DNA of 38,820 nucleotides, taken from positions 1-38,820 of IMG/VR virus record IMGVR_UViG_3300036945_000079; one strand, written 5' to 3'. Below the pieces are notes generated by a model. It was not told where the DNA came from. It saw only the letters and a program-made list of their open reading frames with translations, and did not search any database. This DNA is from a virus. Shown here piece after piece: positions 12,591-32,703 of the stretch (its first letter is position 1; the number at the start of each line of letters is the position of its first letter). The position numbers and the translations under genes are program-made.

Positions 12591-12664
12591 GTTGGCGCGG
12601 GTTATCCCCAGCAACATATAGGCGGCTTGGGTTTTCCACGCAACAATTAGGTTAGCGCGGGTTA
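12591..12664. repeat. Pair of 14-base direct repeats upstream of terS
   Basis: GTTGGCGCGGGTTA at 12591-12604 and GTTAGCGCGGGTTA at 12651-12664 differ at one base and are exactly 60 bases apart, centre to centre. One copy sits beside the terS start and the other covers the stop codon of the HNH gene. Sites next to terS are common binding sites for the small terminase subunit, so a packaging role is possible. They could also bind a regulator of the late promoter lying between them. Confidence 0.6.
12615..12643 (-). promoter_or_regulatory. Candidate sigma-70 promoter for terS and late genes
   Basis: On the minus strand, TTGCGT (12643-12638) and TATATG (12620-12615) are separated by 17 bases. 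The start of transcription would fall about 40 bases before the terS ATG. The hexamers match the consensus only moderately. It would give the late genes a start independent of the early promoter at 21.1 kb. Confidence 0.5.
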
Positions 12665-13384
12665 GATATACATCCAGCCGGGTTTGCTCGTGTCTTCACC
12701 GCCGCGATGATATTCGCCGCTAAAGCTGCCCATCTGGCAGTATCGGGAAACCGAATGTGCGCCTAAGCCCAAGGCTTCCGCTGCCAATGTGGCGCTAGGA
12801 AAATTTCCATACGGCGTTTGCACCGGCTTAGCACATGGATGCGTCGCCCGATTTTTCAAATGCCGACCCAGTTGCTCGCCCTTAGCGCCGCGACCCTTAG
12901 CCCGCATGTCAGCCATGTTTTCCATGTAGGTTCCAGATTTCAAATGAGCCGGATTGACGCAGGCCGGATTATCGCAGGTGTGCATGACAACCTCAGCCGT
13001 TATGTCGCCGGTTGCCAGCGCGTGTGCCATCCGATGCGCCAACACCGTATGCCCACCCAACGAGATCATACCGTATTTGCCATTGGTGCGCGAACCAATC
13101 CAAATGTGGCAAGCATCCTTGCCGCCGCTGGCATCAATCTTACGGCGAAACTTATCGTTCAATTCGCTCGACCAATTCGGCAACAGCAACATAACCCCAG
13201 CGCCAACAGAAAGCGCGTTCCTAGCACGGGTTGTCACGCCCTTAACCTGTGCGGCCACGTTGGCATCATACTTCCGCTGATACTCTTGCCGCAGCTTTGC
13301 CCGACGTTCGCGCATGTAGCAGGCTTGGCACATGCCACGCACGATGGCGTCCCGGTCAGGATGATTTTTGCAGGAAGTGTCCAT
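12662..13384 (-). CDS. HNH homing-type endonuclease with N-terminal zinc finger
   Basis: This 240-aa protein has an N-terminal Cys/His cluster 'CKNHPDRDAIVRGMCQACYM' (likely a zinc finger), a central HNH nuclease core 'AHRMAHALATG...VMHTCDNPACVNPAHL', and a C-terminal 'YGNFPSATLAAEALGLGAHSVSRYC' that resembles a NUMOD-type DNA-binding helix. It probably makes a site-specific break and spreads as a free-standing homing gene. It interrupts the early region and terS, with its own promoter upstream and an AGGAG seven bases before the ATG. It may alternatively have been recruited for packaging, as in phages whose HNH proteins aid terminase. Confidence 0.88.
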   Translation of the reverse strand: MDTSCKNHPDRDAIVRGMCQACYMRERRAKLRQEYQRKYDANVAAQVKGVTTRARNALSVGAGVMLLLPNWSSELNDKFRRKIDASGGKDACHIWIGSRTNGKYGMISLGGHTVLAHRMAHALATGDITAEVVMHTCDNPACVNPAHLKSGTYMENMADMRAKGRGAKGEQLGRHLKNRATHPCAKPVQTPYGNFPSATLAAEALGLGAHSVSRYCQMGSFSGEYHRGGEDTSKPGWMYI

Positions 13385-15395: not shown

Positions 15396-17717
15396 TCAAA
15401 ACTGCTCTCCCACACGGCTGGTTGAACGCAGGCCCTTGCGGTCTTTGTACTGCCCGGCCGACCTGTATGTGAATTCTTCCAGCAGGCCTGTTTCGAGCCA
15501 GTGCTTGATGATGCGCTTGGCTTGCGCATCGTTTTTCGTGTGCTTGGCGCTGTCGAATTGGTAGTTCGTTATAACACTTCCCGCGAACCGTTCTTTGTCT
15601 TGCGGTCGGCTGCTATAATGCTCCACGCCGCCGTCCGTTAAAATACCGGCGTTGATTAAGCTTAGGATCCTGTTGACGGTCTTTTCGTCCATTCCCTCCC
15701 ATTCGTCTGGGAGTGTGAACGGCACGCAGACGCCGACGTATTCCCCGTTGCCGATTTTGACACCGACCATCTGCCTGTAGACTGACGCGGCGGCCGGCGG
15801 TGCGAGGTTGGCTTTGCCGTCGTCGACCCTGAATATGCCTCTGGCGTCGTCCAGTGGTATGCCCAGCTTGACCGCGTCGTCCTCGCTGATCTTGTTTATG
15901 ACGCGGGCTGCTCGGACGGCCCCTATGACTGCGGATGCCCCACGCACGCTGTCGATGCCGGCGTCTTCACCGTTGCCTTTGCGGATGTGGTGGACGAGGG
16001 CTATGCCGCAGTTGGCCTCGTCGGCCACGCGTCGGATCTCGGCCACGACGGCGTTGACCGCGCCGTTATCGTTCTCAGATACGTTATGGGCTGCAACCAG
16101 CGGATCTATGAAAATCATGCCGATGTCCCACTCCTTTATCTTGCGCACCATGTAGTCGACGAGGGCTATGTTCGGGATGACACCGTCGCGGGTTTGCGTG
16201 CCGAATTTCATGCTGAAGTCTCGGCCCGCGCTGACGAAAAGCTTGCCCTCGACCTCTTCCGGCGTAAGCCCGTAACGTTGCATCGCTGCGGTGATACGCC
16301 GGTCGATTTCCTCTAACGTGTCCTCTAAATTTATGATCCAGACGTTACAGCGTTCGTAGACCTTTTCGAGCAGCAGTTCGCGCCCGGTGCAGATGCACAG
16401 CCCCTCGACGATCTGCAGGCTTGTCTTGCCGATGCCACCGGCGGATGCCAGCAGGCTGACGAAGGACCGCAGGTAATGGTTGCCGTAGATCCACCTGCGC
16501 GGCGGTATGTTGATCCCCAGCTTGACCTTGTACGGCACGGGCCACTCGGCCGTCGGGGCTGGTGGCTCCGCGCTGCCCATGGGTATGTCGATGTAATCTT
16601 TTGTTGCAGGCTGATCCAATTGCTTGGGCTGGACGTAGTCGAAGTCGTCCAGCGGGCTGACGGGTATGTCGGACGGCGGCGATGTTGCTACATTCGGCTT
16701 GATCTCCGCGCCGTAGGCTCGCACGGCCGCCTTGAAATCTCCGCCATGTTCGAAATGTGCAAATAAGTCGAACGCGTCGCCGTAGCAGTAAGCGTTGTCG
16801 CCCATTGATTTGGATCTACCGATGGCGGCGGCTGCATCAGATCCAGACAGGCTGACCCAGTGCGTGCCGAAGTTCTGCGTGGCGTAAGATCCGCTGGATT
16901 GGTATCTCGATTTGTAATGGTCGGACGATCCGCGACGCTCGTATCCGTACTTTAGCAGCAGGTCGGCGATGCTGTGCGCCTCGTTGAATGCGTCGACCGG
17001 GTTGGCTTCGGTCGGGTTGTTTAGCCTCCGCTCGGCCCGTTGCTTTTCCCTCTCACGGCGGCCAGCCTCGGCTTGCTCGAATGCGAACCGGCGCTGCTCG
17101 GCACGCCTGTCAACTTCCTGCATGATCGGGCTGTCACTGGTCAGTGCCACGTTGTTCGACCGCACGATGGCATGATCGTAGAACAGCGGCTTGAGATCCG
17201 GCCCACGCTTGGCCAGCGGGATGTTCGGCAGGTAGATCGGCTGACCGCATCGAGCCAGTGCGCCGTCAGGGATAATCCCGTGCTGCCGGAGTAGGTCGAA
17301 AAATGCGGATTGGATCTCCTCGTATGATGCCCCGTCGACAGGGGACGCCAGAGGCAGCAGGACGCGCCATTTGAGGCGATCCGGGCTTGCCCCAGACGAC
17401 GAGTAGACGATCATGCTGACATCGCCCAGCACGTCTCTGACGGCCTGTATGACGTCGGCCTTGCCGGGGTTTCCTTGGTCTATGTCGATGGCCAGCATGC
17501 GGAATGTACCACGTTCGCGCTGGGCGTCGTGGGATCGGCCGTCGTGGGCTGTGTAGGTCGACGGTATGAAGAAATCTGCGTCGGCTTTGTCTTTGGCCTG
17601 CGGTTCCTTGACCATCTTCACGATGTCGGCCCAGCTTATGCTTGGGTATGTCTGGTCTGGCCTGTCGATCAGCGTGAAGTAGCTGCCGTGCGCCATGAGG
17701 AAGCGAATGTCAGCCAT
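15396..17717 (-). CDS. Bifunctional primase-helicase (AEP-like N-terminus, RepA-type ATPase)
   Basis: This 773-aa protein probably starts replication. The N-terminal region (about 1-185) has 'MLAIDIDQGN' (D78, D80), 'YSSSGAS' (105-111) and 'KWRVLLPL', as in archaeo-eukaryotic primase-like domains. A charged coiled coil (about 200-235) follows, then 'GDAFDLFAHFEHGGDFKAAV' (313-332). The RecA-like ATPase has Walker A 'ASAGGIGKTS' (424-433) and Walker B within 'GMIFIDPLVAAHN', then 'GIALVHHIRKG'. This layout matches RepA-like helicases with AAA_25 domains. The start ATG 17717 lacks a clear Shine-Dalgarno; the in-frame TTG at 17822 lies in the terminator hairpin of an opposing RNA and is unlikely. 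Confidence 0.88.
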   Translation of the reverse strand: MADIRFLMAHGSYFTLIDRPDQTYPSISWADIVKMVKEPQAKDKADADFFIPSTYTAHDGRSHDAQRERGTFRMLAIDIDQGNPGKADVIQAVRDVLGDVSMIVYSSSGASPDRLKWRVLLPLASPVDGASYEEIQSAFFDLLRQHGIIPDGALARCGQPIYLPNIPLAKRGPDLKPLFYDHAIVRSNNVALTSDSPIMQEVDRRAEQRRFAFEQAEAGRREREKQRAERRLNNPTEANPVDAFNEAHSIADLLLKYGYERRGSSDHYKSRYQSSGSYATQNFGTHWVSLSGSDAAAAIGRSKSMGDNAYCYGDAFDLFAHFEHGGDFKAAVRAYGAEIKPNVATSPPSDIPVSPLDDFDYVQPKQLDQPATKDYIDIPMGSAEPPAPTAEWPVPYKVKLGINIPPRRWIYGNHYLRSFVSLLASAGGIGKTSLQIVEGLCICTGRELLLEKVYERCNVWIINLEDTLEEIDRRITAAMQRYGLTPEEVEGKLFVSAGRDFSMKFGTQTRDGVIPNIALVDYMVRKIKEWDIGMIFIDPLVAAHNVSENDNGAVNAVVAEIRRVADEANCGIALVHHIRKGNGEDAGIDSVRGASAVIGAVRAARVINKISEDDAVKLGIPLDDARGIFRVDDGKANLAPPAAASVYRQMVGVKIGNGEYVGVCVPFTLPDEWEGMDEKTVNRILSLINAGILTDGGVEHYSSRPQDKERFAGSVITNYQFDSAKHTKNDAQAKRIIKHWLETGLLEEFTYRSAGQYKDRKGLRSTSRVGEQF

Positions 17718-17731
17718 AGATGCACAGGCAG

Positions 17732-17760
17732 TTGCATGGTGTGATGAGGTGATATATAAA
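17732..17760 (+). promoter_or_regulatory. Sigma-70-like promoter of a rightward small RNA
   Basis: TTGCAT (17732-17737) and TATAAA (17755-17760) are separated by exactly 17 bases on the plus strand, opposite to all genes around it. Transcription would start near 17767 and meet a strong terminator about 60 bases on. No protein frame of useful size lies between. Confidence 0.7.
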
Positions 17761-17766
17761 CATGGT

Positions 17767-17837
17767 GCGAGGCGTTCTCCCTGCGTTGCATTGTGCTTAG
17801 GCCCGGTTGGATCCTCCCCCAACCGGGCCTCTTTTTA
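17767..17837 (+). ncRNA. Candidate small RNA, antisense to primase leader, with C-rich loops
   Basis: The predicted transcript of about 70 bases begins after the promoter at 17732-17760 and ends in a rho-independent terminator. Two hairpins can form: a weaker one (about 17766-17790) with loop TTCTCCCTG, and the terminator hairpin with loop ATCCTCCC. Both loops carry anti-Shine-Dalgarno-like C-rich sequence. This plan resembles the CcsR/'cuckoo' small RNAs of alphaproteobacteria, which expose CCUCC motifs in loops. It is also fully complementary to the leader of the primase-helicase mRNA, so cis control of replication is a second possibility. Confidence 0.65.
17799..17837 (+). terminator. Rho-independent terminator of the rightward small RNA
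   Basis: A perfect stem of 12 pairs joins 17799-17810 (AGGCCCGGTTGG) with 17819-17830 (CCAACCGGGCCT) around an 8-base loop, followed by CTTTTTATT on the plus strand. The minus-strand copy is not followed by a T run, so it ends only rightward transcription. Confidence 0.88.
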
Positions 17838-18263
17838 TTGTCTCGCCAGCTTACCTTTGATGCCGGGGCTGTTTTCGCCAGTGCGAGATTTGCAGTATTC
17901 TATGAACTTTGGCATGTTCAAGTTCTCCTTTTGTGTTCCCCACTTAAGGTTGTTAGCATTATTGTTCATTGCATCCTCATCAATATGGATGACAACATCC
18001 ATCCCGTCAGGTGCTGGACCGTGAAACGCTTCGCACACAAGCCTATGAACTTTCATGTTTCCGTAGAACTTTGCACATATGTTCATAAACTCATGCCTAG
18101 CTGTTTTAGATGCGCGAGTAATGTAACCAAACGTAGGCTTTGGCTCATACTTTCTTAATCCACCATGAGGCATTTTTGCCCATCTTTCTGGCAGCAAAAT
18201 CCTGCCAATTGAACTTGCCATGATTCCCGGCTTCGACGGGACTGGCTTCCAGATTTCTTCCAT
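17835..18263 (-). CDS. HNH endonuclease with NUMOD4-like N-terminus
   Basis: This 142-aa protein begins 'MEEIWKPVPSKPGIMASSIGRIL', close to the NUMOD4 motif of homing endonucleases, then has the HNH_3-type core 'KVHRLVCEAFHGPAPDGMDVVIHIDEDAMNNNANNLKWGTQKENL'. It contains the expected H-N-N residues ('VIHIDEDAMNNNANNL'), although the usual 'HIDGNKxNN' is altered to 'HIDEDAMNN'. It is likely a free-standing homing endonuclease inserted between ssb and the primase-helicase. Its ribosome binding site is partly hidden in a hairpin (18272-18304). Confidence 0.88.
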   Translation of the reverse strand: MEEIWKPVPSKPGIMASSIGRILLPERWAKMPHGGLRKYEPKPTFGYITRASKTARHEFMNICAKFYGNMKVHRLVCEAFHGPAPDGMDVVIHIDEDAMNNNANNLKWGTQKENLNMPKFIEYCKSRTGENSPGIKGKLARQ

Positions 18264-18344: not shown

Positions 18345-19007
18345 TTAATCAAAAGGGATTTCGTCATCCAGATCGGCAAGCTTCGGTTTAGCCTGCGCGG
18401 TGGTAGACTTCACCTCAAGTTCAAACGGATCTTCCGCCGGCTTCTTGACCTCGACCTCGTCGAAGTCATCCATGCCATTGTCGCCGTACTTGGCTTCTGT
18501 GACTTGGACTGCATCGAGCAGTAGGCTGATGCCACCGTTTCCGTCTGGGTCAACCACAGCGACGGCCCATGCACGCACAGTGCCGACCGAGCCACCCCAG
18601 AAGTCCAGCTTTTCCATGGGCTGCTTTGCGCCGTCGATCACGGTCGGTGCTTCGTTGCGGTCACCGTTCTTCTTCGTGCCGTTACGCTTGGCCGAAAACT
18701 GCATGAAGCCTGTCGGGTTGCCGTTGCTGTCTTTCAGCCGCTTTGCGCCGAAGACAGTTTTGAACTCAGGCATCTTGGTATTGCGGGTGCGGCACTCGGC
18801 GTAGTGCGCTTTCAGATCGGCGACCAAGGCTTTGGCCTCGGCTTCGGGCATGTCGAATGTGACCGACCATGCAGCGTTGCTGGCCGTGGGTGCGCAGGGT
18901 TCGCTGCGCTGCGTGGCCGTGTTGAAGCGGTGCGTCTGGTGCAGCTTTGGGAACTGGAGCGTGACGTTTTTCGCCAACACTTTCTTGAAGTCTGAATTGT
19001 CTGCCAT
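18345..19007 (-). CDS. ssb: Single-stranded DNA-binding protein (DUF2815-like)
   Basis: This 220-aa protein has the pattern of phage SSBs of the DUF2815 type: 'FKKVLAKNVTLQFPKLHQTHRFN', 'AWSVTFDMPEAEAKALVADLKAHY', 'WGGSVGTVRAWAVAVVDPDGNGGISLLLDAVQVTE', then an acidic tail. The last residues 'DLDDEIPFD' closely match the C-terminal tip of bacterial SSBs ('DDDIPF'), which recruits partner enzymes. It would coat single-stranded DNA during replication and recombination. AAAGGAGA lies before ATG 19007; an upstream in-frame start at 19067 has no such signal and is rejected. Confidence 0.85.
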   Translation of the reverse strand: MADNSDFKKVLAKNVTLQFPKLHQTHRFNTATQRSEPCAPTASNAAWSVTFDMPEAEAKALVADLKAHYAECRTRNTKMPEFKTVFGAKRLKDSNGNPTGFMQFSAKRNGTKKNGDRNEAPTVIDGAKQPMEKLDFWGGSVGTVRAWAVAVVDPDGNGGISLLLDAVQVTEAKYGDNGMDDFDEVEVKKPAEDPFELEVKSTTAQAKPKLADLDDEIPFD

Positions 19008-19029
19008 GGTGTTCTCCTTTGAAGCAGAT

Positions 19030-19833
19030 TTAGAAATCCGAAAAGACATCCTCTTCGGGCAGTTCAACTTGCCAACGCGGCAGGTCGATCACGTTAACCA
19101 AATCCCAACCTGTCCGATAGTCGTTGGACGCTTCGGCGTTGGCGATCTGGTATAGGGTCTGCGTCACCTTCATGTCGGCTTGCAGGATGTATTCGTCGGA
19201 CAGCGTGTGTGCGCACACTGCATACGGCGCTTCCTTCTCGACGCACAAGAAGTAAAATTCCAAGCCGCCGGCGCCGTGCTGCTGCATGCAGCGACGGTAG
19301 AATGCCGCCTGCAAATCGTAACCGTACCGGCGCAGATCACGCGGGAATCCGTTCGGGCTGGCATCCTGCGTTGTCTTGATGTCGAACATCAGGTTCATGC
19401 TGGGGATGTATCCATCGGGCCGGCATTTGATCTTCACGCCGGTTTGTGCGTCCTCTGCGAAGAAGCTGCCTTCGGCTACCAGATCGGCGGCTTCAAGCCA
19501 CATCTTGCCAGCCGGGTGCGCTCGGACGGCTTCGGCCATGCGTTCGGCCAGATCATAGTCGGCTTCCGTGAGCAGTAGCTTGCCGTCCAGATCGGCGGCC
19601 AGCTTGAGATCCTTCCACTTGTTGCCCCGGCGATCTTCGGGGCCGCGCACGATCAGATCCTTTTCCGGCTCGAGGCAAAGCGCATGCACGGCCGTGCCGA
19701 GGTCGAACGCCGCGCTGGATTTGTAAACTTTGTTCTTCCAGTGCAGCAATGATTTCAACGCAACGGCTTTGACATCGCTGCTGCTGATCTCCGGCCGTGC
19801 GTGGTAGGCTTCGTTGGTTAGGTCAAGTTGCAT
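19030..19833 (-). CDS. PD-(D/E)XK exonuclease, RecE/Cas4-like
   Basis: This 267-aa protein has the order of motifs of phage PDDEXK nucleases (DUF3799-like): 'FDLGTAVHALCLEP', 'GVKIKCRPDGYI' (metal Asp), 'LMFDIKTTQDASP' (D-x-K), and 'YGYDLQAAFYRR' (the QxxxY motif). The protein opens with 'EAYHARPEISSSDVK', a common opening for RecE-like nucleases. With SSB and the RuvC-like protein it forms a recombination set. A GTG four codons upstream is possible; ATG 19833 is used. Its 5' end overlaps the next gene by 16 bases. Confidence 0.85.
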   Translation of the reverse strand: MQLDLTNEAYHARPEISSSDVKAVALKSLLHWKNKVYKSSAAFDLGTAVHALCLEPEKDLIVRGPEDRRGNKWKDLKLAADLDGKLLLTEADYDLAERMAEAVRAHPAGKMWLEAADLVAEGSFFAEDAQTGVKIKCRPDGYIPSMNLMFDIKTTQDASPNGFPRDLRRYGYDLQAAFYRRCMQQHGAGGLEFYFLCVEKEAPYAVCAHTLSDEYILQADMKVTQTLYQIANAEASNDYRTGWDLVNVIDLPRWQVELPEEDVFSDF

Positions 19834-21798: not shown

Positions 21799-23042
21799 CA
21801 GCTTATTACAACGAATATGACCCCAAGGCTGCGGCTTGGCTGCGGGAGTTAATCAAACAAGGTCACATCGCTGATGGTGTGGTTGACGATAGGAGCATCG
21901 AAGATGTCAGACCAGATGAACTTGCTGGATTTACTCAGTGCCACTTCTTCGCCGGCATTGGTGTCTGGTCCTACGCTCTCCGCCGCGCCGGATGGGCCGA
22001 CGACCGACCAGTATGGACAGGATCATGTCCGTGCCAGCCTTTCAGCGCGGCAGGCAAAGGAGCAGGGTTTGATGACGAGCGGCATTTGTGGCCAGCTTTC
22101 CACCACCTCATCAGCCAGTGCCGACCTGACGTTGTCCTTGGTGAGCAAGTTGCAAGCAAAGACGGCCTTGGTTGGCTCGACCTTGTACACGCTGACTTGG
22201 AAGCAACGGGCTACGCCAGCGGGGCGGTCGATCTCTGCGCTGCGGGCATCGGTGCGCCGCACATCCGCCAGCGGCTCTGGTGGGTTGGAACACGGCTGGC
22301 CGACACCGACAACACAAGACGACAATTGCTCACGGATGCAAAACCCGCAGGAGTATGCGGAGAAGCGTCTGGCAAGAGACAACAAGTGCAGCAACCTAGC
22401 ACAAACGGCACAAGCGATGGCAGCATGGCCGACACCAGCATCACGGGATTACAAGGGCGAGAGTGGAGCGGGCCGACAGGAACGCAAGGATCATCCAGCG
22501 GATACAGTTCCGAATGCGGCGGCATTGGCGGGCTGGACAACTCCAATTGTGCAGGACAGCAAGCAGAGCGGCCTAGCCCCATCTGGAACGGGTCACAGCA
22601 TGAAGTTGTCATTCGAGGTGCAGCAATCGGGATGGCCGACACCACGATCCTCGGACGGGGAGAAGGGGTCACGCACGATGGATGGCTGCGAGGCGGAGAT
22701 AGCACGGAAGGGTCGGCTGGACGATCTGCCGTCGATGGCGACTTGGGCAGCGGGTTGGCCGACACCAGCAGCATCAGACGGGGAGAGAGCGGGGTCTGGG
22801 ATAACAGCGGGAATGACGGGAACCAGCCTGACGCAGATGTCAAAAATGATCGGCCCAGCCCGACTAACGGCCACTGGCGAGATGCTGATTGGCTCTTCTG
22901 CCGCGATGGAAAGTGGAGGCCAGTTGAACCCGGCACATCCCCGTTGGCTCATGGGTCTGCCGCCAGAGTGGGACGACTGCGCGGTTACGGCAATGCAATC
23001 GTTGCCCAAGCAGCGCAAGCCTTCATCGAAAGCGTGATGTGA
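21795..23042 (+). CDS. dcm: DNA cytosine C5 methyltransferase
   Basis: This 415-aa protein has the conserved motifs in order: motif I '[12 protein letters not shown]' (51-62), motif IV 'PCQPFS' (catalytic C80), motif VI 'GEQV' (E117; EQV replaces the usual ENV), motif VIII 'IRQRLWWV' (157-164), and C-terminal 'GYGNAIVAQ' (motif X). The N-terminal '[17 protein letters not shown]' is typical of phage members. The part between motif VIII and the C-terminal motifs (about 165-365), where the target recognition domain sits, is low in complexity with repeated 'ADT'-like units, because another gene is encoded there in a second frame. Probably protects phage DNA from host restriction. Confidence 0.92.
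21904..23037 (+). CDS. Nested 'WPTP' protein overlapping the methyltransferase in the +1 frame
   Basis: This 377-aa frame lies wholly inside dcm. ATG 21904 has AGGAG eight bases upstream; an earlier in-frame ATG (21874) has none. The sequence reads '[18 protein letters not shown]', '[12 protein letters not shown]', '[14 protein letters not shown]', then five WPTP-type units ([40 protein letters not shown]) and ends '[20 protein letters not shown]'. I recall stand-alone phage and bacterial proteins with these same features, commonly beside Dcm genes, of unknown function. A chance frame would not reproduce a known family, so the overlap appears genuine. Partner or modulator of the methyltransferase is a reasonable guess. 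Confidence 0.78.
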
Positions 23043-26501: not shown

Positions 26502-27488
26502 TTAGAGTGCGCCGTTGATGTCTGCAATGACGCCGTGGGCCTTCTGGGTGTCAACCTGCAGGCCGTATTCGACAGCGATCAGGCGACGCTCGGAGTGGCC
26601 GGTGCGGGCCAGCGGCTTCTGCGACACGTTCGACAGGTAGGCAACGCGGGCGTAGTTCGGATCCAGAACGAACACGTCGCGTGCAGCCACGGTGCGGGTT
26701 TCCAAGAAGCGGGTCGGAACGATTTGCAGCGTGCCGAAATCCGAAACGTAGATGTCGATGGCAGCCGACAAGGTCTTCGTTGCGGTCATGTCTTGGTACT
26801 TGGTGGCCGAGCCGGTGAAGGTCGAAGAGATCTTCTGCTTCACGGCCGAGCCGCACAGCACGATCGAAGGTTCTGCGCCGTTGTTCCAGCACGATGCGAT
26901 GACCGTCTTCAGCATGTCTTCGGTCAAGGCACGGGCAGTGCCGTCGGTGGCGGCAGCGTTGGGGTAGCCAGCGGTTGTGCCAGACAGCGTGCCGTTTGCG
27001 CCCGAAGAGCCACGCGACACGTTGGAGGTCAAGAACGCAGGCAGACCAGCGGTTGCACGGGCGGCCGAGGTCGAGCCAGCCGACGCTGCGATGTTCGACA
27101 GCAGCATCAGTTCCATGTCGCGCTTCAGTTCCTTCAGCTTGTAGGCGACCTGCTTGGCCAGCGTCTGGGCGTCGGCTGCACCGTTCACGGCGTCGGCCGT
27201 GTCGGAAACTTCGACCACCTTGTCCGAGATCTGGGTGTAGTTCGACAGACGGACGGCGTTGGTGGGCGCGTCGTTGCCGGGGGATGCTTCACCTTCAACC
27301 ACACGGTTGGCGGCGGGCGATGCCAGATCGACGACGGGCCATTCAAAGTAGGTGTTGGACACCGACTTGCGGCCGATAGCTGACATGAACGGAGTGTCCA
27401 TGGGCGAGATGGAGATCATTGCGTCTTGCAGATCTTCGCGGATCGTGGTGACGCCATAGGTCTGTTGGGTATTCGAGTTGACGGCCAT
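26502..27488 (-). CDS. Major capsid protein, SU10/DUF5309 type
   Basis: This 328-aa HK97-fold protein opens 'MAVNSNTQQTYGVTTIREDLQDAMISISPMDTPFMSAIG' in pieces characteristic of DUF5309 capsids, has the long helix 'AYKLKELKRDMELMLLSN' (about 112-130), the beta segment 'DIYVSDFGTLQIVPTRF', 'VFVLDP' and the C-terminal 'YGLQVDTQKAHGVIADI'. AAGGAG lies seven bases before the ATG. It follows the scaffold gene and works with portal and scaffold to form the procapsid. Confidence 0.93.
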   Translation of the reverse strand: MAVNSNTQQTYGVTTIREDLQDAMISISPMDTPFMSAIGRKSVSNTYFEWPVVDLASPAANRVVEGEASPGNDAPTNAVRLSNYTQISDKVVEVSDTADAVNGAADAQTLAKQVAYKLKELKRDMELMLLSNIAASAGSTSAARATAGLPAFLTSNVSRGSSGANGTLSGTTAGYPNAAATDGTARALTEDMLKTVIASCWNNGAEPSIVLCGSAVKQKISSTFTGSATKYQDMTATKTLSAAIDIYVSDFGTLQIVPTRFLETRTVAARDVFVLDPNYARVAYLSNVSQKPLARTGHSERRLIAVEYGLQVDTQKAHGVIADINGAL

Positions 27489-27511: not shown

Positions 27512-28498
27512 TTAACTCAGGAGGAAACGTGCGACATCGTCGACGCTCCCAGTGCGCTTCATCTGAACCTTGGCCTTATCGGCTGTCACATTCTTTGATG
27601 CCTGTGCCGCAGGTCGAGCGCCCGGTTTTACCGTCGGGGTCCGCTGTTGCTGCTGTGCCTGCTTTTCGACGGCTGCCTTTCCCGAAACAATGCGGCGATA
27701 TTGTGCGGCATCGTGCAAGACACGGAGCAGGCGGTGATCGGACACCTGCTCTAACTCGTCGATGGCAAACCCGTAAACCTCGGTGCCGGCCTTGATCAAA
27801 TCCTGCTTCACCTTTGCCGCCGTCTCTGGCTTGGCTAGGGCTGGAATGGCGCGAGCGAGTTGCTGTTGCTGTTCCTGTAGGAAGGATCGGTGGGCTTGCA
27901 TTCTGGTTTCGGCGTCTTGGGCTTCCAGTTGCTGCCGCAAAGCTTGGGCATTCTGGTAGCTTGCCAGTTCCTTGTCATATCTGACGCGGTCCTGAATGTA
28001 GCCGATTGGGTCTGTGGTAAGCAGGCTTTCGTCTGGCATCGCCGGCGGCCGCATTGGGATTTGCCCAGATTGAGCCGCCTGAAAGACTTGTGCCAACTGT
28101 TGGCGTTCGGTTTGCAGGGCTTCGTAAACTGCCGTCGTCTCTTGGCGAGCCGATGCAACTTCCTTCATGCCCTTTTGGATGTATGCCTGTCCCGAATAGC
28201 CCCGGAGTAACTCGTTCAAGGGAACCTGCTGGTCGCGGCCGTCAACCTTTACGGTGAACAGTTGCTCGGCAGGTGCATCCTCTTCGGTGTCCGTTTCGCT
28301 TTCGTCTGTGCCTTCATCCGAATCCGCTTCAACCTCTTCGGCTTCCGCGTCGTCACCGTCGTCTTGGTTTTGTGCGTGGTCCTCTTCGGACTGCTCCAAT
28401 TCTACGGTTTCTTCCTCTTCGACCTTTTCGACCGGCATCTCAATGAGGCTGGCCGCTACGGCGTCGATGCTTCCGTCATTTGCAGTCGTGTTATCCAC
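27512..28498 (-). CDS. Scaffolding protein
   Basis: This 328-aa protein has an extremely acidic N-terminus (about residues 20-80, Glu/Asp-rich), then 'LNELLRGYSGQAYIQKGMKEV', a Gln-rich helical coiled-coil middle (about 115-220), and a basic C-terminal part ('QASKNVTADKAKVQMKRTGSVDDVARFLLS'). Acidic body with basic capsid-binding end, placed just before the major capsid gene, is the standard form of phage scaffolds. The start is GTG 28498, overlapping the previous gene by eight bases. Confidence 0.85.
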   Translation of the reverse strand: MDNTTANDGSIDAVAASLIEMPVEKVEEEETVELEQSEEDHAQNQDDGDDAEAEEVEADSDEGTDESETDTEEDAPAEQLFTVKVDGRDQQVPLNELLRGYSGQAYIQKGMKEVASARQETTAVYEALQTERQQLAQVFQAAQSGQIPMRPPAMPDESLLTTDPIGYIQDRVRYDKELASYQNAQALRQQLEAQDAETRMQAHRSFLQEQQQQLARAIPALAKPETAAKVKQDLIKAGTEVYGFAIDELEQVSDHRLLRVLHDAAQYRRIVSGKAAVEKQAQQQQRTPTVKPGARPAAQASKNVTADKAKVQMKRTGSVDDVARFLLS

Positions 28499-31035: not shown

Positions 31036-32703
31036 TTATCTCCGACCTTCTGGTGCGTTACGTTGTGCCTGCGAGCCGGTAACCATACCCTGAGACAATC
31101 GTTGTGCAGCTTCTGCCAGCATTCGGAATGACGCTGGATCTGTGTCCATAAGTTCTCTAGCCCGACCAGATGCCACCAGTGCTTGCAGCAACTTGGCCCG
31201 GCCTTCAATGGTCATCTCGCTGATGCGTCGTGCCATCGTCCCGGTAGCCAAAGCTGTGGCGGCGCCGACACCTGCACCAATAGCGCCGCCCATTGGGCCG
31301 ATGCCCATTGCTGAACCGATGCCAGCGCCAAGGGATGATCCAAGGCCCATGCCCGTCATTGCGCCAAGTCCGCTTGAACCACCGCTGACAGCCAAACCCA
31401 TTTTGCCAAGCTGAGAAACGGCATTACCGAGTGGCGTGCCGTTTACGATTTCCTTCATCAGCTTAACTTCTGCTTCGTTAAATCCCCGCATTCTTTTTGG
31501 GGTTCGAAGCATTGTAGACATGTATTGTTTCAGGCCATTTTCGAAGCCGCTTTTATATGTGGATGCGTAGTCAATGGCAGTTTGGATTGCCTCGCTGCGG
31601 CGCATTCTTCCCCACAATTCGCGGGCGTTAGAGAATTGCTCCCCTACGTTATCTGCTGTCCCAGATGACAGTTGCTGCGGGGTCAAACTTTCAATAAAAT
31701 CGTCAATTGATCCAACCATGCCAGAACCAAGCATCTGCTCTTTTGGTTCAGTCATCTTCCCCATGGGGATTGCGGCTTTTTCACGCAGCAACGAGAGTTC
31801 ATCTATACCGACGTTCTGGCCTACCTTTTCTTGCAGTCGTCTTGCAGCAGTTGCAGCGGCAGGCGTTAGGTCAGGGTCCATGCCTTTTTGGGTGGCCTGT
31901 GCAATAATGTTGCTAACAAGGTTTTCATAATCTGCCGCATTGATTACAGCACCACTGGCGCGTGCCGCCGCGTAGGCATCATCAGCCTCTTTGCGTAGGG
32001 CTTCAATTGCCGGCGCACCCACAGCAGCGGCAGCGCGTGCCTTGCGGTCCAGAACCCTTGCAAAGCCGGCGGCAACTTTATCAAAGCCAAATTTGAGAGC
32101 AGGCGTTGCCAATGCGCCAACTAGGGTTCCTTCGAAAGTACCCTGCGCCCTTTCACCCGGACGAGCAGACAGGTAACCAGTTGTGCCACCGTAGGCAGCA
32201 CCAAGTCCCAATGCCTCTTTATATGTTTTTGCTGCGCCAAGCGGTGTTAGGAGAGATCCGCCAATTTCCAATCCGTAAGTCGTCAATGGCTCATTCTGCC
32301 GTGCCGCATCTATCTTACCCTGCTCTTGCATTTGATAATTGCGGTATTTGTCGGCCAGTGACATTTCGGGATTACGACCCAACAATGTATCAGCAAGCGC
32401 CGCACCACCGGCGACGATCTCATCACCTGCACCCATAGTGATGCCGCCGAGCAGTGACCGAGCCTTATACCCTTCTGGAACATAATCTGTTGCAATGCTG
32501 CGGGACGTTGGCTCGTATCCACTTTTCTTTGCCGCATCAACCATTCCAGCAAACGAGCCTTGGTCAATGCCGGCGCGGCTGGCAAATTCTCCCATAGGAA
32601 TTTTGCCTTTGTAAAACTCGTTCCAAATAGAAAACGCCAACTCCCCGTCTGAGAGAGCCGAGTATTCTGGAAAACTTTGCCGAATTTTGTCAATGCCAGC
32701 CAT
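31036..32703 (-). CDS. Internal virion / ejection protein, glycine-rich
   Basis: This 555-aa protein starts 'MAGIDKIRQSFPEYSALSDGELAFSIWNEFYKG' (in pieces), a module seen at the start of phage internal or transglycosylase-associated proteins. A helical middle part (about 200-400) follows, then a long Gly/Ala/Met hydrophobic region (about 435-490, 'GAMTGMGLGSSLGAGIG', 'GGAIGAGVGAATALATG') able to insert in membranes. This suits a protein ejected with the DNA to help form a channel. Lies beside the lytic transglycosylase and portal genes. Confidence 0.75.
   Translation of the reverse strand: MAGIDKIRQSFPEYSALSDGELAFSIWNEFYKGKIPMGEFASRAGIDQGSFAGMVDAAKKSGYEPTSRSIATDYVPEGYKARSLLGGITMGAGDEIVAGGAALADTLLGRNPEMSLADKYRNYQMQEQGKIDAARQNEPLTTYGLEIGGSLLTPLGAAKTYKEALGLGAAYGGTTGYLSARPGERAQGTFEGTLVGALATPALKFGFDKVAAGFARVLDRKARAAAAVGAPAIEALRKEADDAYAAARASGAVINAADYENLVSNIIAQATQKGMDPDLTPAAATAARRLQEKVGQNVGIDELSLLREKAAIPMGKMTEPKEQMLGSGMVGSIDDFIESLTPQQLSSGTADNVGEQFSNARELWGRMRRSEAIQTAIDYASTYKSGFENGLKQYMSTMLRTPKRMRGFNEAEVKLMKEIVNGTPLGNAVSQLGKMGLAVSGGSSGLGAMTGMGLGSSLGAGIGSAMGIGPMGGAIGAGVGAATALATGTMARRISEMTIEGRAKLLQALVASGRARELMDTDPASFRMLAEAAQRLSQGMVTGSQAQRNAPEGRR

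Follow-up and report, generated by a model that had tools for sequence, protein, structure and literature searches.

The primase-helicase gene of the virus record IMGVR_UViG_3300036945_000079 is probably controlled by a short cis-encoded antisense RNA, a countertranscript that would block translation of a leader open reading frame (ORF) and hence of the coupled primase-helicase, in the manner of the plasmid RNAs CopA and IncB RNAI. The complete 38,820-base record is referred to here as the window. In plasmids, copy number is controlled by antisense RNAs, and plasmid-like antisense control of the primase-helicase was one of two uses proposed for this element in an initial annotation of the sequence. 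It is the predicted best fit, since the 5' loop of the RNA complements the Shine-Dalgarno (SD) sequence of a leader ORF whose end overlaps the primase start, and since this layout is conserved across divergent clades. The antisense element is a sequence-based prediction, and its reading as a cis-antisense RNA is supported by a promoter, a terminator, stem-loops and a leader ORF, together with their positions and conservation.

The antisense unit and its neighbours

The initial annotation described a rightward TTGCAT-17-TATAAA promoter followed by a perfect 12-pair terminator with a T run, and both are found in the + strand sequence (Table 1). The hairpin occupies positions 17799-17830 (+), is followed by CTTTTTATTG, and is the top terminator-like site in a 20-kb scan of the window. 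The distance of 60-70 bases originally given between promoter and terminator is corrected slightly: measured from the -10 element, the stem begins after 38 nt and ends after 70 nt. Because the promoter matches the consensus at just 8 of 12 positions (3 of 6 in the -35 element), it is absent from the list produced by the 20-kb scan; taken alone, it would be unconvincing. The unit as a whole folds far below dinucleotide shuffles (z = -3.4). The two C-rich loops noted earlier are both present in the predicted fold, one being TTCTCCC (17775-17781) and the other the terminator loop, ATCCTCCC.

Table 1. Features of the predicted antisense unit and of the adjoining genes in the window
Feature	Position	Strand	Description	Basis
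Antisense promoter	17732..17760	+	-35 TTGCAT (17732-17737), 17-nt spacer, -10 TATAAA (17755-17760)	Sequence; position and spacer kept in relatives
Predicted antisense RNA, ~72 nt	17767..17838	+	Start set 7 nt after the -10 element	Deduced from promoter and terminator
Predicted 5' stem-loop	17767..17789	+	UUCUCCC (17775-17781) exposed, complements SD of leader ORF	Predicted fold
Intrinsic terminator of antisense RNA	17799..17836	+	12-bp stem, 8-nt loop, T run	Sequence; equivalent hairpin in nearly all readable relatives
Leader ORF	17710..17763	-	Peptide MFIYHLITPCNCLCIYG, then stop, which overlaps the primase start codon	Same layout in relatives
SD-like GGGAGAA of leader ORF	17775..17781	-	Putative antisense target	Sequence; SD conserved in relatives
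Primase-helicase, 773 aa	15396..17717	-	Putative regulated gene	C-terminal RepA-type AAA_25 helicase
HNH homing endonuclease	17835..18263	-	Between ssb and antisense unit, outside the unit	Pfam HNH_3
Gp2.5-like ssDNA-binding protein (ssb)	18345..19067	-	Conserved upstream neighbour	phrog_112; annotated ssDNA-binding protein in CRP phages

The genes surrounding the unit lie on the - strand, as had been claimed; the nearest + strand gene found, a DNA methyltransferase (21874-23037), is the sole clear counter-direction gene among those scanned. The primase-helicase matches Pfam AAA_25 (E 5.8e-33) and PHROG primase/helicase families, and its C-terminal part resembles the RepA hexameric helicase 1g8y (profile match, E 1.6e-14). 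As a correction to the initial annotation, the gene directly upstream of the primase in the window is the HNH homing endonuclease gene. In the relatives read, this gene is absent and the hairpin directly follows the ssb stop codon; the simplest interpretation is therefore that a mobile element inserted here without disrupting the RNA unit. The DNA of the HNH gene resembles (73.5% over 209 bases) that of a homing endonuclease gene in MW202640 (Manatee Spring).

Several other features of the window were recorded. A second HNH endonuclease gene (12662-13384) adjoins the terminase small subunit gene. Two adjacent ORFs (26502-27488 and 27512-28498) have the same length of 328 aa and dissimilar sequences; the first encodes a major head protein, and a third ORF (31036-32703) also matches a major head family. 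A tRNA search found no tRNA genes.

Conservation of the terminator and promoter

Approximately 90 primase leaders, including those of four isolated Roseobacter phages (CRP-811, CRP-821, CRP-823 and CRP-831), were collected by protein searches of viral contigs, genome contigs and annotated phages, and were cut to 37 non-redundant leaders at 90% identity. A search of viral contigs for the exact hairpin returned four contigs (L040-L043), two of which (L042 and L043) were already in the collection as L014 and L002; the other two (L040 and L041) carry hairpins without the leader sequence. Of the approximately 90 relatives, nearly all that have a readable upstream region contain an 11-14-bp hairpin, 73-148 nt ahead of the primase ATG. 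The first 9 nt after the hairpin contain 5-8 T in the antisense direction, compared with 0-3 (5 in one case) in the coding direction, and the hairpin sequence varies between clades with its pairing preserved. The T-rich tail on the antisense strand and the pairing kept across clades indicate that the hairpin is a conserved terminator for antisense transcription. A table of terminator pairs mixes registers and was excluded from the counts. One relative, L123, has no hairpin, and its upstream region differs too.

The antisense promoter follows the same pattern. In the 37 leaders, the mean score of the best sigma70-like match within the region is 9.9 for the antisense and 5.2 for the sense strand. 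The best antisense promoter nearly always has the form TTG...-17-TA..., with a 17-nt spacer in 34 of the 37. Its -10 element is located at -40 to -47 relative to the primase ATG in the main clades, and its -35 element varies by clade (TTGCAT, TTGTAA, TTGAAA, TTGATA, TTGCCA or TTGACA) at constant position and spacing; the four CRP phages keep the hairpin and have the TTGACA version. In 31/37 leaders, the promoter outscores every sampled window of the same size on the same strand of the primase coding sequence. Because part of the promoter lies inside the short leader ORF, a null was also built by resampling the leader-ORF codons with the peptide unchanged. The promoter exceeds this synonymous-codon null in the window (p 0.01) and, at p < 0.04, in 21 of 28 leaders; the exceptions are mostly leaders of a long class, whose -10 element sits outside the ORF. 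Moreover, when 649 kb were scanned on both strands for a strict promoter and a terminator 25-80 nt apart, 22 of the 25 units detected were at the primase-leader spot. As the relatives are not independent, combined p-values overstate the evidence, and counts are the more honest measure.

According to the initial annotation, the proposal would have had to be abandoned if relatives that keep the primase had lost the unit; both promoter and terminator are kept in nearly all of the approximately 90. The comparison thus confirms the promoter-terminator observation and makes it stronger than is visible in the window alone. A conserved terminator at a gene boundary, facing the antisense direction, would also suit a pure transcription insulator that keeps stray antisense transcription out of ssb and involves no regulatory RNA. 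However, this explanation is very unlikely, as the promoter itself is conserved in fixed position and spacing, and as it would not account for what lies between promoter and terminator, an anti-SD stem-loop whose arms co-change.

RNA fold and the leader ORF

The predicted antisense RNA is 70-75 nt long in one class and approx. 103 nt in the long class; in the CRP phages, it would measure approx. 90-96 nt. A linker joins its anti-SD stem-loop to the terminator. Long-class RNAs (L004-type leaders) have an extra hairpin at the 5' end; the mRNA leaders of this type contain a second SD-like stretch. The arms of the 5' stem co-change between leaders (GGAAC/GUUCC, GGAAG/CUUCC, AGAAC/GUUCU and GUAACC/GGUUAC) around a CUCC-type loop, a co-variation that was assessed by hand from folds; MAFFT aligned the 5' stem poorly. 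Of 34 leaders, 19 have a stem around the CUCC loop that exceeds shuffled sequences in strength (p < 0.05); the window clade is not among them, its stem being no better than chance (p 0.29).

The 5' loop is complementary to the SD of the leader ORF, which reads GGGAGAA in the window and mostly AGGAG in the other leaders. In 28/37 leaders, the leader ORF comprises 13-17 codons, with its ATG at -46, -40 or -34 (-53 in one) and its stop at approx. +5; the leader peptides are very divergent, though the start and stop positions are constant. In most relatives, the conserved SD is separated from the primase ATG by in-frame stops and hence serves the leader ORF and not a longer primase. On account of these stops, the idea that the region, whose frame is open to 17822 in the window, encodes an extended primase was rejected. 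In many relatives, no good SD directly precedes the primase. Leader coupling would not extend to all relatives, because the CRP phages, which have their own SD, and the L012 clade, in which an upstream ATG is fused in frame, are without an overlapping leader ORF. In one clade (L003, L056, L057 and L079), an 8-bp hairpin, kept through G-U changes, holds the primase AUG in its loop; its 5' arm is formed by leader-ORF sequence and its 3' arm by primase codons. This start-codon hairpin found no support as a general feature; it is clear in that clade and broken in others.

The C-rich loops also bear on the other use proposed in the initial annotation, namely that the RNA acts in trans as an anti-SD RNA, like the cuckoo/CcsR RNAs of alphaproteobacteria, by binding where ribosomes attach on numerous mRNAs of host or phage, its position beside the primase being secondary. 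RNAs of the alpha-r14 family form three hairpins, each with CCUCCUCCC in an unpaired part (PMC10746234). The alpha-r14/cuckoo RNAs (NfeR1, CcsR) and the predicted phage RNA are alike in their C-rich anti-SD loops and terminal hairpin, and show a weak covariance-model similarity. In addition to the CUCC-type 5' loops, such trans action is favoured by the score of the alpha-r14 model on the window stretch (31 bits, E 1.5e-4 in a 151-base search) and by scores of approx. 30 bits in two relatives (L064 and L090). However, every alpha-r14 score is well under the gathering cut-off of 58.8 bits, and the model aligns its first hairpin with the promoter. The RNA predicted in the window has two hairpins (three in long-class relatives) and is without the CCUCCUCCC repeat; the motif is shortened and is absent from the terminator loops of many clades, in which the coding-strand loop is AGACCAA or CGAGCAA. 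The phage RNA is also cis-antisense in position, and its exact complementarity to the leader SD accounts for the 5' loop with no need for trans targets. Comparison with the cuckoo/CcsR model, by which the initial annotation proposed to check the relationship, gave 31.0 bits against the cut-off of 58.8 and a different hairpin count, and membership of alpha-r14/cuckoo (Rfam RF02344) was rejected. Trans action as the main function is unlikely.

A model for cis-antisense control

The features described above lead us to infer transcription of the antisense RNA, duplex formation, translational coupling and copy-number feedback, all as parts of one scheme. The antisense RNA would start just upstream of the leader ORF, run against the genes and stop at its own terminator without reaching ssb. 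The corresponding part of the primase mRNA is predicted to fold into a hairpin whose loop displays the leader SD. Pairing of the anti-SD loop of the antisense RNA with this hairpin would prevent ribosomes from loading on the leader ORF. In many relatives a good SD is missing directly in front of the primase, whose ATG overlaps the stop codon of the leader; translation of the primase would thus depend mainly on ribosomes that have completed the leader, and a block of the leader would be a block of the primase as well. In the clade with the start-codon hairpin, a ribosome translating the leader would open the 8-bp hairpin that holds the primase AUG. As the antisense RNA would be made from every genome copy, its level would climb with the number of copies and damp the synthesis of the replication protein.

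Comparison with known antisense RNAs

R1 CopA and IncB/IncI RNAI are described as countertranscripts that act by blocking a leader ORF to which a replication gene is coupled (works listed in PMC10724649). The predicted unit has the anatomy of this group, that is, a location on the strand opposite a replication-gene leader with its own promoter and terminator, and its predicted recognition loop, the stem of which is weak in the window clade, is likewise complementary to the target mRNA leader. In particular, CopA (R1/IncFII) and the RNAI/Inc RNAs (IncB, IncI-alpha and IncK) share with it a small size, an antisense position across from a replication-gene leader, an own promoter and terminator, stem-loops with a loop complementary to the mRNA, and a short leader ORF whose stop overlaps the replication gene. 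They differ in that the plasmid RNAs target an initiator, whereas the predicted RNA occurs in phages, in part presumably lytic ones, and would target a primase-helicase. Rfam searches point to no sequence relation; the likeness concerns anatomy and not the kissing or pseudoknot steps. A weak match to the R1162 antisense RNA was discarded, as it lay on the wrong strand. RNAII of pMV158 has one hairpin and binds by its 5' tail (PMC4485353). It is alike in its very small size and in acting as an antisense block on the translation of a replication gene; its single hairpin and its origin from a rolling-circle plasmid set it apart from the predicted phage RNA.

The best-known phage parallel is OOP of phage lambda, which pairs with the 3' end of cII and not with the start of a replication gene. 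A primer or origin role was reportedly once proposed for OOP, and the antisense transcript described here could similarly exert its main effect on DNA, either by priming replication or through origin transcription beside the primase. OOP is a 77-nt self-terminating phage antisense RNA that lies beside replication genes and opposes cII (PMC3349717). The likeness to the predicted RNA is one of layout only: both are phage-encoded, short, self-terminating and antisense, beside and opposite replication genes. However, OOP overlaps the 3' end of cII, while the predicted RNA overlaps the SD of an ORF leading into the primase-helicase; its neighbours are ssb (or the HNH gene) and the primase-helicase, and it covers the primase leader in place of the 3' end of cII, the target of OOP. 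A role at the DNA level would agree with the location of the unit beside ssb and the primase-helicase and with the lambda oop/pO region, which adjoins replication genes and influences replication (PMC3349717). It is nevertheless improbable, since translation is the step suggested by the SD-loop structure and by the leader ORF, and the cumulative GC skew has no clear turning point exactly at the unit.

Significance for the phage family

At gathering level, Rfam 15 gave no match in the window or in 11 relatives; the predicted RNA, lacking an Rfam family at this cut-off, would be a new family to annotate. In the literature, which was covered in part, no earlier description was found of a phage primase leader opposed by an antisense RNA. 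Phages of the CRP-822-type group lack an integrase almost throughout and are probably lytic (PMC12629253). For this reason, an RNA resembling those of plasmid copy control is unexpected in this group, and such control would be new there. It is conceivable, though we advance this tentatively, that an apparently lytic phage family, comprising the CRP-822-type phages and their environmental relatives, sets its primase-helicase level by a plasmid-style countertranscript RNA, mostly with leader-ORF coupling, that gene-dosage feedback thereby controls replication timing or burst, and that co-infecting phages with matching loops could inhibit each other. If the recognition loops differ between clades, they may create incompatibility between co-infecting phages, similar to that between plasmids. 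With isolated phages and cultured hosts available, the metering of lytic-phage replication by gene-dosage feedback becomes testable.
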